Made by a program: the position numbers and the translations under genes. The notes beneath the pieces were generated by a model that worked only from the letters and a program-made list of their open reading frames with translations, searched no databases and had not been told where the DNA came from. 14,751 bases of DNA from Candidatus Lindowiibacteriota bacterium (GTDB lineage: Bacteria; Lindowbacteria; 2-12-FULL-62-27): assembly GCA_023249255.1 (NCBI GenBank), contig JAHFCY010000059.1, positions 1 through 14,751 of the forward strand, given 5' to 3'. Below, piece after piece: positions 1,293 to 13,875 of this stretch (position 1 is its first letter; every line of letters starts with the position of its first letter).

Positions 1293-3413
1293 ATGGCCAA
1301 ACCTTCCGGCGAAATTATCGAGCTTCCGATCAAATCCAATTTCAAGGAAGGCCTCACGGTTCTGGAATACTTCATCTCCACCCACGGCGCGCGCAAGGGA
1401 CTGGCCGACACGGCCCTCAAGACCGCCGACGCCGGATACCTCACGCGCCGGCTGGTCGACGTCGCGCAGGAAATCGTCATCGAAACACAGGACTGCGGCA
1501 CGCACGAAGGCATCTATGCCGAGGCGCTCCGCGAGGGCGAAGAAGTGATCGAATCCCTGGGCGAACGAATTCTGGGACGCGTTCTTCAGGAGGATGTCAT
1601 TCATCAGGACACCGGCGAGGTCCTTGCCAAGGCCAACACGCTGGTGGACGAGGCGCTCGCCAAAAAAATTCAGGATTCCGGCGTCGAGCGCGTCTTCATT
1701 CGGTCCACGCTCACCTGTGACTCGCGCCGCGGCATCTGCCAGCTCTGTTACGGCCGCAATCTCGCCACGGGCAGGCTCGTCGACATCGGCGAGCCCACGG
1801 GCGTGATCGCCGCCCAGTCCATCGGCGAGCCCGGCACCCAGCTCACCATGCGCACGTTCCACATCGGCGGCGTCGCCACCGGCGGCGCGACCCGCGAACT
1901 GGTCCTCACCTATGACGCCCTCGTCACCGGGTTTCCCGAACGCACCATTCCGCGCAAGGAGGGCAGGGACGATATTCACATCGCCAGCCGCGACGGAAAA
2001 TTGGTCATCCGGATGGTCAAAAGCACGATCGACACGAAGACCGTCAAGGTCAAGGTATTCGACGGACTGTGGATCAAACGCGGCGAGGTCGTTGGAATCG
2101 AAGGTTCGGGCAAGGCCGCCGTGGAGATCAAGGCGCCGGACGACGGCGTCGTCTACATTCGCGAAAACGGGGTCATGATCATGGGCGCCGAACAATACTA
2201 CGACGTCAAAATCGGCACGCGCCTCCGATGCACCTCCGACGCCTACATCCCGGCCGGCAGCGTCATCGCCGAGTTTGATCCCTACAACGACACGATTCTC
2301 ACCGAGGTCGACGGCACGGTGACGTTCAAGGAAATCATCGAGGGCCGCACGTCCAAACAGATCGTCGACGAGACCACCGGTCTCATTCGAACCGAAATCG
2401 CCGAAGACCGCGAGAAACAACTGTTCCCGCGCGTCGGGGTTGATTCCCCGTCCAGGAAAATCCCGGTCGAATACGACCTGCCCTACGGATGCATTCTCGA
2501 CGTGTCCGACAACAGGAAAGTCCGCGCCGGCGATGTTCTCGCCAAAATTCCGCGCGCGCAGTCCAAGACGAAAGACATCACCGGCGGTCTCCCCCGCGTC
2601 GAGGAACTTTTCGAAGCCCGCGGCAAGACCACGCGCGACGCGTTTATCTCCCACATCGACGGCATCGTTTCCTTCGACGCCAAAAAACCCAAGGCCGGCC
2701 AGCGCCGCGTCATCATCACCAATCCTGAAACCGGCGTGAAGAAGGAGTACGACATCCCCGTCGGCCGCTATCTAAAAGTGCGCGAGGGCGACACCGTCAA
2801 GCAGGGCGAGCCGATCACCGATGGTCCGGTCAACCCGCACGACATTCTCAACGTCAAAGACATCAAAGGCCTCATGCTCTACCTCGTCAACGAGGTTCAG
2901 GAGGTCTATCGCCGGCAGGGCGTCGACATCAACGACAAGCACATCGAGATCATCGTCCGCCAGATGTTGCGCAAGGTCGAGATCAAGGACCAGGGGGATT
3001 CGGATTTTTCGATTGGAAGTTTGGTCGACCGCTTCACGCTCAAGGACGCCAACGAACATCTCATCCGCCAGGGCAAAAAACCGGCCGCATTCGAACCGCG
3101 GATTTTGGGCATTACCAAGGTTTCCCTCGAAACCGATAGTTTCATCTCAGCCGCGTCGTTCCAGGAAACCCGCCGGGTTCTCACCGACGCCGCCATCAAC
3201 GGCGAGGTCGACCGCTTGCGCGGATTGAAGGAAAACGTCATCATCGGCCGCCTCATCCCGGCCGGCACGGGCTTGAAACCCTACCGGTCACAGATGGACG
3301 CCATCGACGCCGACGCGCAGAAAATCATCGCCAAATTCGGATTCGACGCGGCCCGGGAGTCCCAGGCCGAGCTTCCCCCCGCCCCGGAACAGGAACCCGT
3401 CACCGTCGGCTGA
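1293..3413 (+). CDS. rpoC: RNA polymerase subunit beta', C-terminal part (same gene, after the TAG)
   Basis: Continuation of beta'. It carries the bridge helix (from about 1362, [19 protein letters not shown]), the four cysteines of the second zinc site (codons 1494, 1716, 1737 and 1746), the trigger-loop segment [13 protein letters not shown] near 1836-1868, and the C-terminal [17 protein letters not shown] and [19 protein letters not shown] blocks. The stop is TGA. ATG 1293 is only an internal methionine of the GLMAKP motif and has no convincing ribosome binding site, so I do not think translation begins here. Homology runs without a gap back to codon 1272. This is not the cyanobacterial rpoC1/rpoC2 split, which is placed elsewhere and has real start signals. 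No insertion domain is obvious. Confidence 0.93.
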
Positions 3414-3738: not shown

Positions 3739-3966
3739 GTGGAACAGTTGATCGTCCATATCGAGGGGCAAGTGGAGCGGCTGATTCGTCGCAAGGACGA
3801 CCTGACGCGGGACAACTCTGTCCTGCGCCGGGAAAACGAGCGGCTCCGAAAACGCGTCGCCGAACTGACGGATGAACGCGACCTCTTCGATCACCGAATC
3901 CGTCTCTCCACCCGCCACGTCGAAACCGCGCTCTCGCGGCTGAAACTGCTGTCTGAAGATCTCTGA
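3739..3966 (+). CDS. Small coiled-coil cell-division-associated protein (ZapB-like)
   Basis: A 75-residue, highly charged protein predicted to be one long coiled coil: leucines and isoleucines recur at heptad spacing through VERLIRRKDDL, VLRRENERLRKRVAEL and ALSRLKLL. It has no signal peptide or membrane segment. Start GTG 3739 is preceded by a GGGGGA tract with 8-nt spacing. Its TGA overlaps the ATG of zapA by one base, so translation is probably coupled. Short coiled-coil genes directly upstream of zapA are common and are presumed to act with ZapA at the division ring. The family cannot be fixed by eye from so simple a sequence; the functional call rests on the neighbour. Confidence 0.7.
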   Translation: MEQLIVHIEGQVERLIRRKDDLTRDNSVLRRENERLRKRVAELTDERDLFDHRIRLSTRHVETALSRLKLLSEDL

Positions 3967-4301
3967 TGCCCTCGGTCGAAGTCATCATCCTCGGAAAAAA
4001 ACACACGTTCGACACGCCCGAAAATCCCGACCGGGTCAAAACCGCCGCCCGCCTGCTTGAGCGCAAACTCAAAACCGTCACCGAAGTCTACGGACTCATC
4101 TCGAACGATCACATGCTGGTCCTCGCCGCCTTGAACCTCGCCGAGGAATTGATTCGCCTGAAACAGGAAACCAAACTCGACCGCGCCGAGGATTTTTTGC
4201 GCGGCCTTGCCGAGCGCCTCGACCTGGCGATGCGGGATGAGGCTGACTCTCCCGACGTTCCTTCCGACCCCTGCCTGCCTGCCGGCAGGCCTTCCCGATG
4301 A
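3966..4301 (+). CDS. zapA: Cell division protein ZapA
   Basis: 111 residues. The N-terminal SVEVIILGKKHTFDTPENPDRV and the helix LVLAALNLAEELIRLKQE match the ZapA family, which binds FtsZ and cross-links its filaments at the septal ring. ZapA has a small globular N-terminal domain followed by a dimerising/tetramerising coiled coil, and this layout is visible. The last 20 or so residues (SDPCLPAGRPSR) are unlike the family and are encoded by a GC palindrome (4277-4290), suggesting a small repeat insertion into the C-terminal coding end. The stop overlaps the rnhB start as ATGA, so rnhB is coupled. Confidence 0.88.
   Translation: MPSVEVIILGKKHTFDTPENPDRVKTAARLLERKLKTVTEVYGLISNDHMLVLAALNLAEELIRLKQETKLDRAEDFLRGLAERLDLAMRDEADSPDVPSDPCLPAGRPSR
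4277..4290. repeat. 14-bp perfect palindrome in the zapA 3' end
   Basis: GCCTGCCGGCAGGC is preceded by further CTGC units (4271-4276). It encodes part of the CLPAGR tail of ZapA. Short palindromes of this type are dispersed repeats in many genomes. Confidence 0.75.
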
Positions 4302-4945
4302 AAATCCTCGGCGTCGACGAAGCCGGCCGCGGACCGGTCCTTGGGCCGCTGGTGATGGGCGCGGTCTGCGCCGAAGAATCCCAGTTCGAGAAATTGCGGG
4401 AATTGGGCGTCCGTGATTCCAAGGCGCTCACGCCGAAGGCCCGCGCGCGCATCTTCGACCGTCTCGCGGTCGAGTTTCAGATCGATCATGAGATCGTGAC
4501 GCCCGCCTCCATCAACGGCGTTGGCGCAAATCTCAACAATCTCGAATATGACGCGCTTTCCAGTCTTCTGGTCCGTCTGCGGCCCGACCAGTTGATCGTC
4601 GACGCGTTCATGACGCCCCACCGCCTCGCCAAACAGATCGTCCGCGATTTTCCCAACGTGACCGTCATCGCCGAGTGGAAGGCAGACGAAAATTTTCCGC
4701 TGGTTTCGGCCGCGTCGATCGTCGCCAAAGTCATCCGCGACCGACACATCGACGAGCTGAAACCCACCTACGGCGATATCGGATCGGGATATCCCGGCGA
4801 TCCCAAAACGCGGCGGTGGCTGCGCTCCCAGATCCTGAAAAACCGTCTGGCCCGGACATCCGTCCCGTCTTTCGTCCGCATCAACTGGGGCACTCTCCGC
4901 CGCCTCGAAACCGAAACCCCTCCGGAACAGCCAGAAAAAAAATAG
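4298..4945 (+). CDS. rnhB: Ribonuclease HII, archaeal type
   Basis: Endonuclease that cuts RNA in RNA/DNA hybrids and removes single ribonucleotides from DNA. The 215 residues carry the family signature GVDEAGRGPVLGP and the acidic catalytic set D7, E8, D102 (IVDAFM) and D130 (EWKADENFP). Several blocks match the archaeal subgroup rather than the usual bacterial one: LGVRDSKALTP, KADENFPLVSAASIVAK and above all YGDIGSGYPGDPKT, where bacterial enzymes have a YGxxxHKGYGT-like segment. This suggests an old transfer from archaea or descent within a bacterial group that shares this form. Its start overlaps the zapA stop. The terminal KK and stop are supplied by an A-run abutting a hairpin repeat, so the C-terminal tail (ETETPPEQPEKK) may be repeat-derived. 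Confidence 0.93.
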   Translation: MKILGVDEAGRGPVLGPLVMGAVCAEESQFEKLRELGVRDSKALTPKARARIFDRLAVEFQIDHEIVTPASINGVGANLNNLEYDALSSLLVRLRPDQLIVDAFMTPHRLAKQIVRDFPNVTVIAEWKADENFPLVSAASIVAKVIRDRHIDELKPTYGDIGSGYPGDPKTRRWLRSQILKNRLARTSVPSFVRINWGTLRRLETETPPEQPEKK

Positions 4946-5039
4946 GCCACAGACAGACGCCCACCCGCACACCCAGACTCCCACAGGTATCTATGAAATT
5001 GTCTGTGTCTGTCTGTGTCTGTGAGTGTCTGTGTGTGGC
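4946..5039. repeat. Imperfect palindrome with CAGACA-type arms (copy 1)
   Basis: The left arm (4946-4985) starts GCCACAGACAGACG; the right arm (5001-5039) is its imperfect complement, rich in CTGTGTCTGT units and ending GTGTGTGGC. Loop of about 15 nt. An A-run (4935-4942) precedes it, so on the minus strand it resembles a hairpin plus T-run. It fills the whole rnhB to 5051 gap. A second copy lies at 10578-10675. Confidence 0.85.
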
Positions 5040-5050
5040 TCCCGGTTTAG

Positions 5051-7099: not shown

Positions 7100-7119
7100 A
7101 ATAAATCTGAAGGAGCGTG

Positions 7120-8139
7120 ATGAACATGATTTTTCTGGGAATTTTGTCGATTGGATTTGGCCTTTATGTGCTGATGGCGATTGAGGGCATAAACGCCGGA
7201 CTTTTCCTCGCCCCGAGCGCCTTGGGCATTATCGTGTTTTGTTCTCTGGGCGGAGTTCTGATCACCTACCGCCCGAAAGAAATTATTTCCGGCCTGAAAG
7301 CATTTTTCCGGAAGGACATTCAGGACTCCAGGGAAAAACTGATTGACTATGCAAACCTGTTTTCTTTATTTTCCAGGTATTCCATGAACGCGGCATGGCT
7401 GGGTACGGTATTCGGGGTAATCAACATCTTGCGTCGCATAGGCCAGGCGCTGGAATCGCGGGATCATATTAACATCGGCATGCTGGCGGGCGGGATTGCA
7501 CTCGGGGTGGTCGGCATCCTATGGGGGATTTTGCTGTCAAAGTTTGTCTTTGAATCGATTAAAAATAATCTGGAACGCAAAGCTCTCGCCGCGAAGGAGG
7601 CCGGACAGGGGGAGGCGATTCCGGAGTCGGTCCCATGCCGCTGGGGCAAACCGGTTTTGCTTTCTCTGCTGGCGATCGTGGTCGTTGTATTGTCCCTCCG
7701 GGCGTTCATGAAAGCCCGCTCGATGAATTCCGGCGCGCCACAATCTCAAGGCGCATCGAACACCCGGCGTTCTACGATCCTCGAAACCCAGCTTCTGGGG
7801 ACGAGCGAAAATCCTGATATCGATATCACGATTACTGATCGGGGGGAACTCCACCGCCTGCATTGCACCATTTACGTGGGGTATTCAAGAGAATATGAGT
7901 CGCGCGGTCAATTCTACGATGAATTAAAAGAACGCATCCCCCAACTCAGAGAATTGGTCATCCGGATTCTCGGCGCGAAGACGCTGGAAGATCTGCAGAT
8001 TCGGAATCTGACTCCGCTCAAAGAGGAGATGATCGTCAGGATCAATGAACTGTTGAGCAACGGCCAGATCGCCGATATCGTGTTTAGCAATTACGTTCTG
8101 GATCCAATGAGGCCGGCCGTTCCGCCGCAATCGCGCTGA
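7120..8139 (+). CDS. MotA-like stator membrane domain fused to a FliL-like periplasmic domain
   Basis: 339 residues. The N-terminal part looks like MotA/PomA: two hydrophobic helices with EGINAG and SALGIIVFCSLGGVLITYRPKEI between and after them, then a shortened cytoplasmic loop and two more helices around AAWLGTVFGVINILRR and IGMLAGGIALGVVGILWGILL. A fifth helix (PVLLSLLAIVVVVLSL, about 182-200) would place the C terminus in the periplasm. That C-terminal domain (about 235-330) has FliL features: a run of RGQFYDELKERIPQLRELVIRIL, then KTLEDLQ, LKEEMIVRINELL and GQIADIVFSNYVL. Known FliL surrounds or contacts MotAB stators, which makes the fusion logical. No motB or other flagellar gene is in the window. 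GTG 7117 and ATG 7126 are alternative starts; AAGGAG ends 4 nt before ATG 7120. The MotA proline of the third helix appears to be alanine. Confidence 0.68.
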   Translation: MNMIFLGILSIGFGLYVLMAIEGINAGLFLAPSALGIIVFCSLGGVLITYRPKEIISGLKAFFRKDIQDSREKLIDYANLFSLFSRYSMNAAWLGTVFGVINILRRIGQALESRDHINIGMLAGGIALGVVGILWGILLSKFVFESIKNNLERKALAAKEAGQGEAIPESVPCRWGKPVLLSLLAIVVVVLSLRAFMKARSMNSGAPQSQGASNTRRSTILETQLLGTSENPDIDITITDRGELHRLHCTIYVGYSREYESRGQFYDELKERIPQLRELVIRILGAKTLEDLQIRNLTPLKEEMIVRINELLSNGQIADIVFSNYVLDPMRPAVPPQSR

Positions 8140-8191
8140 CTCGAATTCGAAAACGCCGGCAAGTATGAATCGTCGTGAAAATAGTTTTCTG

Positions 8192-8220
8192 TTGCCTGCC
8201 TGCGAATCGTGAGGTATAGT
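8192..8220 (+). promoter_or_regulatory. Promoter for the Minf_1886/RT pair
   Basis: TTGCCT (8192-8197) and TATAGT (8215-8220) are exactly 17 bp apart, giving a predicted transcription start near 8227 and a leader of about 45 nt. A palindrome CGAAC-GCA-GTTCG (8244-8256) sits in that leader and may be an operator or a small RNA hairpin. Confidence 0.55.
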
Positions 8221-8270
8221 TTCGACATGCTGACGGGAGGCGGCGAACGCAGTTCGGCCAAACTACACCC

Positions 8271-8696
8271 ATGAAAAAACCCATGACAACCTTCGAGGAA
8301 CTGGAACAGATCGCCAACACGGCGCTCGGCGGAATGGTCAAGCCGCAGGCGCTCGGGTTTGTCCTCTCTGCCCTCGACTTTTCCCTGCGCGGGCAGAAAC
8401 AGCGCCAGCCCAGGCACATCACCGGCAAGGAACTCTGTGAATCCGCCCGGGACCTCGCCGCGCGCGAGTATGGCCTCATGGCCCGCGAAGTCCTCAATGA
8501 GTGGGGAATCGACTCCACCGAGACCATCGGGCGAATCGTCTTTGCGCTGGTTGACGCCAAAAAGATGTCAAAAACCGATGAGGATTCGCTCGGCGATTTC
8601 AACCGCATTTTCGATTTCGATTCGGCGTTCTCTCCGGCCGCCATTTTGAAAGCCGCCCGCGAACTCCGTCCTAGAGCCCGCCACAAACCATCCTGA
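8271..8696 (+). CDS. Minf_1886 family protein (uncharacterised)
   Basis: 141 residues, soluble, no signal peptide. The layout matches the Minf_1886 / TIGR04138 family: an N-terminal helix, QALGFVLSALDFSLRGQ, RHITGKELCESARDLAAREYG, REVLNEWGIDSTETIGRIVFALV and KTDEDSLGDFNRIFDFDSAF. Function is unknown. The family ends near the FDFDSAF segment, so the last 25 residues are an extension. ATG 8283 (MTTFEELEQ) is an alternative start; neither has a strong ribosome binding site. The TGA stop (8694-8696) overlaps the first possible codons of the reverse transcriptase frame, so the two are almost certainly co-transcribed and probably translationally linked. Confidence 0.85.
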   Translation: MKKPMTTFEELEQIANTALGGMVKPQALGFVLSALDFSLRGQKQRQPRHITGKELCESARDLAAREYGLMAREVLNEWGIDSTETIGRIVFALVDAKKMSKTDEDSLGDFNRIFDFDSAFSPAAILKAARELRPRARHKPS

Positions 8697-10558
8697 ATTT
8701 CACCGATTCCATCCTCTACGCGGCGTTTCTCAAAGCGCGCCAGTGGCAGTGGGAATCTCCATATTACGATACGGTCGAGGTCCGCCTCTTCGAATGGAGG
8801 CTCCGCGAAAATCTGAATCTTCTCGCCGCGCATCTGAAGAGGGGATACCGCTGGGCGCCGCTTCTGCGTTTCCCCATTCCCAAAAAACCGGGAGAAGACC
8901 GGCCTTACGCTTACCGGAATTTCCGGGATGAAGTCGCCGCCGTCGCGCTGGTTCTCGCCGTGCGAAATCGTATCGAACACGCCATGGACCGCGCGGGTCG
9001 CGCGTCATTCGGTAACCGGCTGTCCGGAATTCACACGTCCGACAAATTGTTTCTGGAATGGCGCGAATCCTGGGGATCGTTCGAACAGGCGTCCCGCCGG
9101 TTCGCCTCTCGAAACCGCTACTACGTCCGCACTGATGTCCGAAAATTTTACCCGAGCGTCCGTCGCGGCCAGCTCATCGAGACCGTTCGGCGGATGTTGC
9201 CGGGCCATCCGGCGGCGGAGTCCCTGCGAACTCTTATCCTCGCCGATGGAACCGATCTTCCCGCGGGCCCGACCATCTCCGGGGTTCTCGCCAACATGTA
9301 TCTCTCGCCGCTCGACGTGGAACTTCTCAACGCCGGGCGTCTTCGCGGCCGATACACCCGGTACGTCGACGACATGTTTCTGTTCGGCTCCGACCGCCGC
9401 ACACTCGTTCGAACTTTTGACGCGCTCCGCCGGAGGCTCCATGACGGATTCGGCCTTGCGACCCACCACGGCAAAGTCGAAATCGGCCGCGCGTCGAATG
9501 CGTTTGACGGCCGGGGAAGCCCCGTGGCTTGGGCCGGGCTGTCCCACGATTTCGACCGGATCGCCCGCACGCTCTATCATGTCCCGCCGGAATACCTGCG
9601 GCTCTATTCGCGATATCCCGCTCTGACGCTCCGCGCTTACGCACAGGGTCTTCGAGCCGCCGGAATTTTCGTGTCGACCGACTGGCTCGCCCAGAATTTT
9701 TTGACGCTTCGCGCCCGCAAGCCGCCGAGGGATTCATGGGACAGCTACTTTCATCTGAACTTTCCACGGCTCAATCTCAAATCGCCGTTTGGCTCGTCGC
9801 ATGCGTGGGCTACGGAATTTCTGCGCAAAAACCGCGACTTCGCCCGGACCACCACCTATCTTCGCGGCGCGCTCACCCGCGGATTTTCTTCGGCTTTTCG
9901 GTCGATCGACCGGCATCTTCATCCCGGCGCGGACGCCAAACGCCTGAAACCCGTTCTCTTTCGGCTCCGGTTTTACGCGTCCCGCCTCTCCATATTTAAT
10001 TGCGCTCCTCTAGCCGCGGCCTTTCAGCGTTTGCAGGATCAGCCGTGGTCATTGGAGCCGTCGGTCAGCGCCACCGCCCTGTTGTCTTCGTCCAACGCCG
10101 TCGACCGCTTTTTGGAAACGCTTTTTTCGCGCCGTGCGCTCCTGGTGCGTGTCCGCGCCGCCTGGGCGCTGGGGGAGCTTGGAAGCCTTCGGTCAATCCC
10201 GGGGCTCTGGGGCGCGGCCCATCCCCAACATCCATTTCTCTTGAGGCTGGCGTCGTTGGAAGCGCTGATTCGAATCGACCGGTTTGAAACGCTTCATCCG
10301 AACGCCGTCTACGCCGCCGCGCGCGCTGAAAAATCTCCGGTGGTGCGAAAGTATCTCTACATCATTTTAGGCCGCGTCCGGCATCCGCGCGCAGGCGAGC
10401 TATTGCGCCACCGCGCAAAAACCGAACACGACTTTTTCGCCCGCCACGCCGCCGAATTCGCCCTGTCCCGCGCCGATCTTCTCGCCACGCCCCCTCCGCC
10501 CGCCCGCCACGCCGCCGCCCCTCTGCTTCCCGGCCGCACCCGTGGCTTCCCAGCTTAG
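8693..10558 (+). CDS. Reverse transcriptase with C-terminal HEAT-like repeats, not intron-encoded, non-standard start
   Basis: About 621 residues. N-terminal RT region: LFEWRLRENLNLL, GYRWAPLLRFPIPKK and NFRDEVAAVALVLAV. Catalytic motifs: RTDVRKFYPSV (first Asp, codon 9134-9136, residue 148), LPAGPTISGVLANMYLSPLD (9257-9316) and YTRYVDDMFLFG (YVDD at 9362-9373, residues 224-227), followed by LATHHGKVEIG and VAWAGLSHDF. From about residue 440 paired helices such as VRVRAAWALGELGSLRSIPGL and VVRKYLYIILGRVRHPRAGELL are HEAT-like. There is no maturase X or HNH domain and no intron structure, so it is a free-standing RT, perhaps of the unknown-group/Abi-like set, some members of which act in phage defence. 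The frame is open only from 8675 and has no ATG, GTG or TTG before GTG 8960, which would delete the first RT motifs; CTG 8693 overlapping the upstream TGA is the best guess. Confidence 0.85.
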   Translation: MNFTDSILYAAFLKARQWQWESPYYDTVEVRLFEWRLRENLNLLAAHLKRGYRWAPLLRFPIPKKPGEDRPYAYRNFRDEVAAVALVLAVRNRIEHAMDRAGRASFGNRLSGIHTSDKLFLEWRESWGSFEQASRRFASRNRYYVRTDVRKFYPSVRRGQLIETVRRMLPGHPAAESLRTLILADGTDLPAGPTISGVLANMYLSPLDVELLNAGRLRGRYTRYVDDMFLFGSDRRTLVRTFDALRRRLHDGFGLATHHGKVEIGRASNAFDGRGSPVAWAGLSHDFDRIARTLYHVPPEYLRLYSRYPALTLRAYAQGLRAAGIFVSTDWLAQNFLTLRARKPPRDSWDSYFHLNFPRLNLKSPFGSSHAWATEFLRKNRDFARTTTYLRGALTRGFSSAFRSIDRHLHPGADAKRLKPVLFRLRFYASRLSIFNCAPLAAAFQRLQDQPWSLEPSVSATALLSSSNAVDRFLETLFSRRALLVRVRAAWALGELGSLRSIPGLWGAAHPQHPFLLRLASLEALIRIDRFETLHPNAVYAAARAEKSPVVRKYLYIILGRVRHPRAGELLRHRAKTEHDFFARHAAEFALSRADLLATPPPPARHAAAPLLPGRTRGFPA

Positions 10559-10568
10559 AGTCTAGAAC

Positions 10569-10683
10569 AAAAAAATCGCCACACACAGACTCGCACCCGC
10601 ACGCACAGACTTCCACACGTCCTTTCCGTCAAGCCTGTCTGTGTCTGTGGTTGTCTGTGTGTGTCTGTCTGTGGCTTTTTTTT
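10569..10683. terminator. CAGACA-type palindrome (copy 2) acting as a likely bidirectional terminator
   Basis: An A-run (10569-10575) precedes the left arm GCCACACACAGACTCGC (from 10578); the right arm of CTGTGTCTGT-like units ends GTCTGTGGC at 10675 and is followed by eight T (10676-10683). The shape is A-run, long imperfect hairpin, T-run. It follows the RT stop by 10 nt and belongs to the same repeat family as 4946-5039. Confidence 0.7.
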
Positions 10684-10747
10684 GTTACACGCCCTTAACT
10701 TTAATTCTTAGACTTCTTGTCGATTGCGCCAATTCCCAATTTTTTAC

Positions 10748-11774: not shown

Positions 11775-11835
11775 GCTGGGCATTGGGGCGGCTCTCCCGA
11801 TGGGAGACCGTATATGATGGGAGGTGGGAAGTTTC

Positions 11836-12894
11836 ATGGCTGAACAGGTGGAAGAAAGACTCAAAATGTTGAAAGCGACGCTCGATTCGATTGAAAAACG
11901 GTTCGGGCGCGGAAGCATCATGCGCCTCGGAGATAAGAAGGCGCTCGAGGTCGAAGCGTTGCCGACGGGAATTTTGCCGCTGGATCTGGCTATCGGCCTG
12001 GACGGCATTCCGCGCGGCCGCGTCATCGAGATTTTCGGGCCGGAATCGTCCGGCAAAACCACCATCACATTGCACATCATCGCGGCCATTCAGAAAGGCG
12101 GCGGGTTGGCTGCATTCATCGACGCTGAGCACGCCCTCGATCCCGTCTACGCCTCCAAACTCGGCGTCGACGTTCAGAATCTCTTGATCTCCCAGCCCGA
12201 CACCGGTGAGCAGGCGCTGGAAATCACCGACACCCTGGTTCGCAGCGGCACCGTCGACATCATCGTCATCGACAGCGTCGCCGCACTTGTTCCGCAGGCC
12301 GAACTCGAAGGCGAAATGGGCCAGCAACACATGGGTCTTCAGGCCCGCCTCATGTCCCAGGCCCTCCGTAAACTCACGTCCTCCATCGCCCGCTCCAGGG
12401 CGTCATGCATTTTCATCAACCAGCTCCGCGAGAAGATCGGCGTCATGTTCGGCAGTCCCGAAACCACGCCCGGCGGCCGCGCCCTCAAATTCTACTCGTC
12501 CGTCCGGCTTGACATCCGCCGCATCGAGCAGATCAAAAAAGGCGCCGATGTTATCGGTAACCGCGTACGGATCAAGGTCGTCAAGAACAAGGTCGCGCCG
12601 CCGTTTCGGCAGGCCGAGTTTGATCTGTTCTTCGGCGCCGGCGTCTCCCGCGCCGGTTGCGCTCTGGAAGCCGGCCTTCTGCAGGGCGTCGTCAAAAAGT
12701 CCGGCTCCTGGCTGTCCTACAACAACGACAAAATCGGCCAGGGCCGCGACGCCGCCCGCCTGTTCCTTGAGGATAATCTCGACAAACTCGCCCAGATCGA
12801 GCAGGAAGTCCGAAGGAAATTGCGCGAGGAAGGCGCCGCGCTGGTCGCGGACACCGACAACGGAAACGGTTCGGACGAATCCGAGGAAAAATAG
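11836..12894 (+). CDS. recA: Recombinase RecA
   Basis: ATP-dependent strand-exchange protein and SOS co-protease, cytoplasmic. 352 residues, the usual length. Visible motifs: Walker [25 protein letters not shown], Walker [13 protein letters not shown], the L1-L2 DNA-binding region from [22 protein letters not shown] to [22 protein letters not shown], and [16 protein letters not shown]. The C terminus is acidic ([12 protein letters not shown]), as expected. Start ATG 11836 has GGGAGG at good distance; the upstream in-frame GTG 11824 overlaps that site and is unlikely. The stop is TAG, which shows that amber is read as stop here. Its own promoter probably lies in the 11655-11835 gap. Confidence 0.98.
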
Positions 12895-12912
12895 TCGCAA
12901 AACGTAACTATT

Positions 12913-13147
12913 CACCACAGAGAACACAGAGAGTGTTCACAGAGTACTCGGATAAATCAGGCATGCCGTTGAAAATTTCATAAGGAATCCAGGAATGCAG
13001 GCGGAATCAAACCCGCTTAAGTTCATGGCTTCATGGCTTCCTTATAATTTTTCCGAGGCCGTTGAATTGTTACGAAATTTCTGAGGTTTCGACTCTAAGA
13101 TATTTCTCTGTGATCTCCGTGTTCAGCCTCTGTGATCTCTGTGGTTC
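12913..13147. repeat. recA-radC gap: CACAGAG-type palindrome with another repeat nested inside
   Basis: The gap 12895-13215 has no gene. The left arm 12914-12944 (ACCACAGAGAACACAGAG...) and right arm 13106-13146 (...CTCTGTGATCTCTGTGGTT) are inverted, imperfectly complementary and built of CACAGAG units. Between them sits a complete GGAATCCA-type palindrome (12965-13050). This is most simply a repeat inserted into an older repeat. Similar CACAGAG intergenic repeats are widespread in environmental genomes. Confidence 0.8.
12965..13050. repeat. GGAATCCA-type palindromic repeat, copy A
   Basis: It starts GCCGTTGAAAATTT, then ATAAGGAATCCAGGAATGCAGG, loops at GGAATCAAACCC, and returns as TTCATGGCTTCATGGCTTCCTTATAAT. 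The outer stem is ATAAGGAA/TTCCTTAT. A second GCCGTTGAA occurs at 13058-13066, right after the element. Related copies are at 13916, 14335-14471 and 14701. Confidence 0.8.
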
Positions 13148-13215
13148 CGAAATTTATTTTTGGCGGCCCGGGTTCGCCCCGCCGACATCCATGGGATTGG
13201 AGTCTCCTTCTACCC

Positions 13216-13875
13216 ATGAAACGCATGACCAAAATCCCGGAGTCGGATCGGCCGCGCGAAAAAATCGTCCGAAAAGGTCCGCAGGCTCTGACCGATCCGG
13301 AACTGATCGCTGTTTTGATCGGTACCGGCACGGCCAAACGCGACGTTCTGAAAGTGGCCCGGGACGTCCACCGCCGCCTGGATATCCGGCCGGGACCGTG
13401 GTCCATGTCCAATCTTCGCGCCATCGCGGGCCTTGGCAAAGCCAAGTCCTGCCAGATCGTCGCGGCGTACGAGCTTGCCCGCCGGCGATTTGCTCCGACC
13501 GGCCGTCGCGTGACCGGTCCCGAGTCGCTCCTGCCTTACATCTCGTTCATCGCCGACAAGCGTCAGGAGTATCTGGTCTGCGTGTCGTTAAACGGCGCGG
13601 CTGAAATCTTGAACTGCCGGGTCGTCACGATCGGCCTTCTCGATTCAACGTCCGTCCACCCCCGCGAAGTCTTCGCCGACCCGCTGTCGGACCGGGCCGC
13701 GTCCGTTGTCCTCGCGCACAACCATCCGTCGGGCGTGCCGTCCCCCAGCCGCCGGGACCTGTGGATCCACCGACGACTCGCCCAAGCCGGCCGACTCCTC
13801 GGCATCGACGTCCTCGACCACCTCATTCTGACGTCAAACGCGTTTTACAGTTTTAAAAAACACGGATTGAGTTGA
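13216..13875 (+). CDS. radC: RadC family JAB/MPN-domain protein
   Basis: 219 residues from ATG 13216. The N-terminal part has the helix-hairpin-helix region ALTDPELIAVLIGTGT and LRAIAGLGKAKSCQIVAAYEL. The C-terminal part is the JAMM/MPN domain with NCRVVTIGLLDSTSVHPREVF and the metal motif AHNHPSGVPSPSRRD, followed by GIDVLDHLILT. RadC was named for a proposed repair role that has not held up; its biochemical function is unsettled. The frame is open back to 13132 but that stretch is repeat DNA; GGAG at 13199-13202 supports ATG 13216, with ATG 13225 as an alternative. It ends at TGA 13875. Confidence 0.93.
   Translation: MKRMTKIPESDRPREKIVRKGPQALTDPELIAVLIGTGTAKRDVLKVARDVHRRLDIRPGPWSMSNLRAIAGLGKAKSCQIVAAYELARRRFAPTGRRVTGPESLLPYISFIADKRQEYLVCVSLNGAAEILNCRVVTIGLLDSTSVHPREVFADPLSDRAASVVLAHNHPSGVPSPSRRDLWIHRRLAQAGRLLGIDVLDHLILTSNAFYSFKKHGLS

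Follow-up and report, generated by a model that had tools for sequence, protein, structure and literature searches.

A conserved gene pair in three Lindowbacteria genomes: a Minf_1886 family protein overlapping a UG/Abi-like reverse transcriptase with HEAT-like repeats

Introduction

Reverse transcriptases (RTs) of the UG type are divided into class 1 enzymes, which synthesize DNA in an untemplated, protein-primed manner, and class 2 enzymes, which use a nearby ncRNA as template (PMC12632851, PMC13174585, PMC13275509). Most of the studied UG RTs with helical domains protect against phage (PMC9508834, PMC12632851, PMC13275509), and AbiK is built as an RT domain followed by a HEAT-like solenoid (PMC9508834). 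A precedent for an RT domesticated for chromosome upkeep is G2L4 (PMC12337344). The Minf_1886 protein family was described in 2008 as almost confined to Planctomycetes and Verrucomicrobia (PMC2474590).

Here, we analysed a window of 14,751 nucleotides from a 3.35 Mb draft genome of Candidatus Lindowbacteria, in which a Minf_1886 gene is followed by an RT gene. A preliminary description of this DNA had suggested that the two genes could form a new two-gene RT system. The phylum sample consisted of the window genome and two relatives (G001 and G002), which together represent three genera of one family.

Conservation and genomic context of the gene pair

The upstream gene (8271..8696, + strand) encodes a Minf_1886 family protein of 141 aa that scored 108.1 bits against TIGR04138 (curated cut-off 60), and the downstream gene (8690..10558, + strand) encodes an RT with HEAT repeats of 622 aa that is conserved end to end in the three genera. 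The overlap between them, as first described, is real: the open RT frame spans 8675–10558 and is closed upstream in the window by an in-frame stop at 8672–8674. The pair was adjacent and overlapping in 3/3 Lindowbacteria genomes, each with one Minf_1886 gene and one such RT, and the flanks differed in each case. The pairing is thus real and conserved in this sample. Upstream of the pair we found a MotA/FliL-like gene in the window, a sugar-nucleotide epimerase gene in G001 and rnhB in G002; downstream were a MerR gene, a gene for a surface-type protein and a convergent small gene, respectively.

The genes of G002 run zapA-rnhB-Minf_1886-RT, with a 4-bp overlap between rnhB and Minf_1886, and the same zapA and rnhB (RNase HII) genes are located at 3966..4945 (+ strand) in the window. 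It seems that this order is a shared ancestral one, which would have stayed whole in G002 and been broken up in the window genome and G001. RNase HII was considered as a special partner of the pair and set aside as a weak candidate, as it directly adjoins the pair in G002 only and each of the three genomes carries a single RNase HII of the ordinary type and a single RNase HI. PADLOC detected no defence family among ten neighbours of the pair, except for a UvrD-type helicase that matched helicase models.

The RTs of the three genera shared 66–71% identity, and the Minf_1886 protein of the window was 66–75% identical to those of the two relatives. As the RT values are at least as high as those of rnhB (62–65%) and resemble those of Minf_1886, they fit vertical inheritance. 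The RT is under purifying selection, with a dN/dS of about 0.2–0.3 for the protein, 0.1–0.3 in most of its parts, a maximum of 0.47 and the minimum at the N-terminus. Because the sample comprises three genomes of one family, the linkage reflects few independent events, and the stable neighbourhood could in part be inertia.

Several other features of the window were recorded. Positions 7117–8139 encode a MotA/TolQ/ExbB-type channel region and a FliL-like C-terminus in one protein, an unusual fusion that separates Minf_1886 from the rnhB region in the window genome and is missing from this place in the two relatives. A recA gene and a RadC-like gene (11824–13875) are found downstream of the RT, a neighbourhood absent from both relatives. 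The rpoC gene appears to be split into two frames (12–1271 and 1293–3413), with the break at 1240–1300 around SGARGN...GLMAKPSGE, which would be a genuine frameshift or a mistake of the assembly.

Translation start of the RT

A standard ORF call places the RT start at GTG 8960. This position was rejected as too late, because conserved coding sequence extends back to the Minf_1886 stop and contains no canonical start. The alignment of the three RTs begins at the codon overlapping the Minf_1886 stop, the N-terminal stretch LYAAFLKARQWQWESPYYDT is invariant among them, and conservation of the protein is highest over the first ~90 codons (dN/dS ~0.1–0.2). Counted from the ATC at the junction, there was no in-frame ATG, GTG or TTG before codon 90 in the window, codon 103 in L005 and codon 67 in L006. 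The stop/start junctions of the three genomes read ATCCTGA, ATCATAA and ATCCTGA. A Shine-Dalgarno sequence is evident at none of them, and the ATC (8690..8692, + strand), which overlaps the Minf_1886 stop, is the sole AUG-like junction codon common to all three.

ATC 8690 is most likely the start codon of the RT. Codons of the AUC kind do serve as starts in bacteria, if rarely (AUU in infC), and AUC would be a very weak one from which to initiate the RT. The catalytic Asp had first been numbered D148; the residue was confirmed, and the number itself fits a start at CTG 8693, one codon past the conserved ATC. The lack of a canonical start codon is a specific and testable oddity, and automatic annotation would both truncate the protein and hide the oddity.

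Domains and classification of the RT

The catalytic motifs and HEAT-like repeats reported earlier were both recovered. The palm/fingers core (8999..9490, + strand; residues 104–267) matched Pfam RVT_1 with 32.4 bits (cut-off 29.6), and the protein also matched HEAT_PBS and HEAT_2 (40.9 bits), the latter in the RTs of all three genomes. Motif A (TDVRKFYP, with the catalytic Asp at 9134–9136) and YVDD (9362–9373) are invariant in the three genomes. The motif B region LPAGPTISGVLANMYL (9257..9304, + strand) has Ala where most RTs have Gln; the preliminary description was right to call this Gln-less motif 4 unusual, although it is not unique, as DGR-type RTs have LPIG and a UG26 RT has IIAG at that site. 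The C-terminal HEAT/alpha-Rep-like solenoid spans residues ~466–595 (10085..10474, + strand), and in profile searches of solved structures alphaRep chains matched residues 451–600 and alphaRep/HEAT chains residues 451–617. The nearest RT chain in this search was 8ub7, titled 'Reverse transcriptase', which we take to be the RT of a diversity-generating retroelement (DGR). An AlphaFold2 model of the RT built from the three sequences had a mean pLDDT of 42.6 and was too poor for use.

The best PADLOC model for the RT was UG35 (PDLC03774), with 142 bits over 460 of 938 positions, followed by UG21, UG25 and UG19. As reference RTs of UG19, UG21, UG9, UG17, UG26 and DRT8 scored 252–556 bits against their own models, the RT is UG-like without clearly belonging to any of the listed groups. 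When 25 RT domains were placed in a tree, those of the Lindowbacterial RTs formed a fully supported long branch of their own, which joined an unresolved node with UG9, UG17 and UG19/21; DGR RTs formed a separate clade (support 100/100), and group II RTs of the same phylum were placed in another group. In line with the preliminary description, the enzyme is not a group II intron RT, and by profile its nearest counterparts are RTs of the UG/Abi type that carry helical repeats.

Pfam detected no maturase, intron or HNH family in the RT and Rfam no intron RNA, as the preliminary description had it, and the RT scored 65 bits against the group_II_RT_mat model (cut-off 300). Together with the separate tree group, these results led us to reject membership of the group II intron or G2L4 RTs. 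No Pfam or PADLOC match to cas1 or cas6, as fusion or neighbour, was found in the RT or the scanned neighbours. By its sequence, the RT is not a group II, CRISPR, DGR or retron enzyme.

Beyond the three Lindowbacteria, no true UG35 member was found among 290 diverse genomes; a UG35 search in 95 genomes of another phylum gave no match of any sort, which does not imply absence. In 352 genomes of one Minf_1886-bearing phylum there were no relatives of the RT at 1e-12 save short RT-core matches, and none were found in viral contigs. Matches to plasmids and phages (23–37% identity) covered parts of the RT core only. A literature search for UG35 RTs or Lindowbacteria RTs found no text.

Search for a dedicated RNA

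The preliminary description had pointed to 8140–8270 and 10559–10690 as places where a conserved ncRNA might be found, and neither survived comparison. In the relatives, the upstream region is missing or is taken up by coding sequence: in G001 the preceding gene stops ~15 nt short of Minf_1886, and in G002 the 4-bp overlap with rnhB, together with the 12 nt between the RT stop and the next gene, leaves no room for an ncRNA. Rfam matched only a tRNA in the window, with no intron or retron RNA, and no RNA in the loci of the two relatives. A permutation analysis of silent sites detected no excess conservation of the kind expected of an embedded RNA (p 0.2–0.5).

The window region 3' of the RT does fold strongly (-55 kcal/mol, z -7). 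This hairpin is one copy of a ~105-bp repeat with at least 50 matches in the same genome (70–96% identity), and it is absent from the loci of the two relatives; it was dropped as a candidate for these reasons and assigned to a repeat or terminator family outside the module. A dedicated flanking ncRNA is unlikely. With no room in G002, no Rfam match, unremarkable silent sites and a hairpin that is a repeat, a class 2 DRT or retron plan is disfavoured.

Copies of the repeat include 10570–10680 and 4936–5040 in the window and loci L128–L147. Their left arm is rich in CA and their right arm in (TGTCTG), and matching A-runs/AAACC and GGTTT/T-runs often flank them. The copies vary in sequence yet keep their pairing, as might be expected of bidirectional terminators or of a family of the REP/MITE type.

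The Minf_1886 family

Minf_1886 was detected in 40 of 290 diverse genomes (37 of these outside Lindowbacteria), with one match per genome, and its spread is possibly wider than the Planctomycetes/Verrucomicrobia label of the NCBI model. As a side observation, the family is single-copy, is found in varied contexts and in many families, and occurs in ~14% of the 290 genomes (loci L010–L039). No general conserved gene context was found for it in other genomes, and an RT of this kind was present in 0/36 neighbourhoods fetched from outside the phylum, as far as these neighbourhoods reach.

The Lindowbacterial proteins end in a basic tail (SPAAILKAARELRPRARHKPS in the window; 8631..8693, + strand) that was seen only in members from this phylum. 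The tail is ~21 residues long (SPAAILKAARxxRxRxxxxPS, with PAAILKAxR..R.R....S common to the three), whereas nearly all members outside Lindowbacteria stop a few residues past the FDFxxAF core, and none of the other members examined carried it. The predicted structure of the protein is all helical (pLDDT 70.5), and its matches in the PDB were not convincing: Foldseek gave an E of 1.2 at best, and VIA-align a top Z of 4.5, a level that the tool rates as common. Part of the tail, PAAILKAAR (8634–8660), resembles the RT N-terminus YAAFLKARQ (8714–8740), possibly by chance in Ala-rich sequence or through a small duplication.

Discussion

We tentatively favour, with a little less than even confidence, the explanation that Minf_1886 and the UG/Abi-like RT with its HEAT solenoid constitute a lineage-specific, vertically inherited two-protein module. 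Ribosomes that finish Minf_1886 would re-initiate at the overlapping AUC, so that the RT would be made at a low, fixed fraction of its partner. The two proteins may then act as a complex, in which the Minf_1886 tail would help to bind the RT or nucleic acid. As no dedicated template RNA lies beside the RT, DNA synthesis might be untemplated and protein-primed, as in AbiK, or might use cellular RNA or DNA ends, as in the domesticated G2L4 RT. That all of its more specific parts hold at once (a new RT group confined to Lindowbacteria, a core gene, AUC re-initiation from the Minf_1886 stop and a Minf_1886-RT complex) is possible, and we regard it as doubtful. With regard to the proposal of a new two-gene RT system, the conservation of the pair was upheld, and its generality extends so far to one phylum only.

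If true, the module would offer a first clue to the function of the Minf_1886 family, which has no known role, and would be a case of RT domestication, in which a bacterial RT has become a host enzyme across a whole phylum. The UG-type RTs studied to date are mostly patchy defence genes, in contrast to a phylum-wide, single-copy RT welded to a conserved gene.

Anti-phage defence of the UG/Abi type, in which the RT would make DNA upon infection and Minf_1886 would be a regulator or effector, is possible because the nearest profiles are those of UG groups (UG35 being the closest) and phage defence is the role of most UG RTs with helical domains studied so far, and we consider it unlikely. The pair is present in every genome of the phylum sample as a single copy with housekeeping-level conservation, there are no defence genes alongside it and the setting is not typical of defence islands, the partner family is a chromosomal gene (40/290 genomes), and phage and plasmid records gave generic RT similarity only. 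A housekeeping-type neighbourhood, single copy number and conservation at the level of rnhB make vertical inheritance a better fit than a mobile defence gene.

The same vertical inheritance and housekeeping neighbourhood would also suit an RT domesticated to maintain the chromosome through end joining or gap repair, with Minf_1886 as its cofactor, for which G2L4 is the precedent. The position of the pair directly behind RNase HII in G002, and of recA and the RadC-like gene downstream of it in the window, agrees with such a role, although neither adjacency is common to all three genomes and each genome already has an ordinary RNase HII and RNase HI. As the RT also falls apart from the group II RTs in the tree, the source of the known enzyme of this sort, we judge this role unlikely.

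It is rather improbable that the genes have no functional link and that the RT merely lies behind Minf_1886 and is inherited with it. Three genomes of one family could give such a picture, and neither the 36 other Minf_1886 neighbourhoods nor the 352 genomes of a Minf_1886-bearing phylum yielded such an RT; yet the overlap was kept while the outer flanks differed in each genome, the RT start depends on this overlap, and the Minf_1886 tail was found only here.

Production of the RT as a Minf_1886-RT fusion through -1 ribosomal frameshifting near the Minf_1886 stop is more improbable again. In 3/3 genomes the RT is read in the -1 frame with respect to Minf_1886 and has no canonical start, and the basic tail before the junction is linker-like. 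However, the codons before the stop (GCC CGC CAC AAA CCA TCC, CGC CGC CGG CCA TCA and AAG AAA AAA TCC) contain no common slippery heptamer, and in the window the stop at 8672–8674 in the RT frame leaves only about six codons for a shift.

Finally, a degenerate DGR with Minf_1886 in the role of Avd, which would account for 8ub7 as the nearest solved RT chain, for the mostly DGR-type motifs of the strongest RT matches in other genomes and for a small helical protein encoded just upstream of the RT, is largely excluded, as the RT lacks the LPIGNLTSQ motif and falls outside the fully supported DGR clade, and a search of the three loci found no pair of template and variable repeats.

Comparison with known systems

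Compared to the UG35 model, the Lindowbacterial RT has the same RT core and following helical region (RT residues 15–483 align with UG35 330–789), and it shares with UG35 and the related UG21, UG25 and UG19 RTs a stand-alone organization without intron parts. The ~330 residues at the N-terminus of the UG35 model have no counterpart in it, and it has a Minf_1886 partner; this comparison is with the model only, at 142 bits against 252–556 for true members of other UG groups. AbiK, Abi-P2 and AbiA have the same plan of an RT-like domain followed by an alpha-solenoid, which in AbiK resembles HEAT repeats (PMC9508834), and the similarity of the Lindowbacterial RT to AbiA is weak (17 bits; 23 bits). 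Like G2L4, the RT is a stand-alone enzyme that may serve the host, but it lies outside the group II RTs and differs in its HEAT solenoid and its partner gene. The DGR RT with Avd also pairs an RT with a small helical protein encoded beside it and is the nearest solved RT by profile, whereas the motif, clade and repeats of the Lindowbacterial locus do not fit. Other members of the Minf_1886 family (TIGR04138) have the same core as the upstream protein described here, to which the Lindowbacterial members add the basic C-terminal tail and the downstream RT. The combination is real, conserved and new, and the enzyme, as far as its sequence allows us to judge, is not new in kind.
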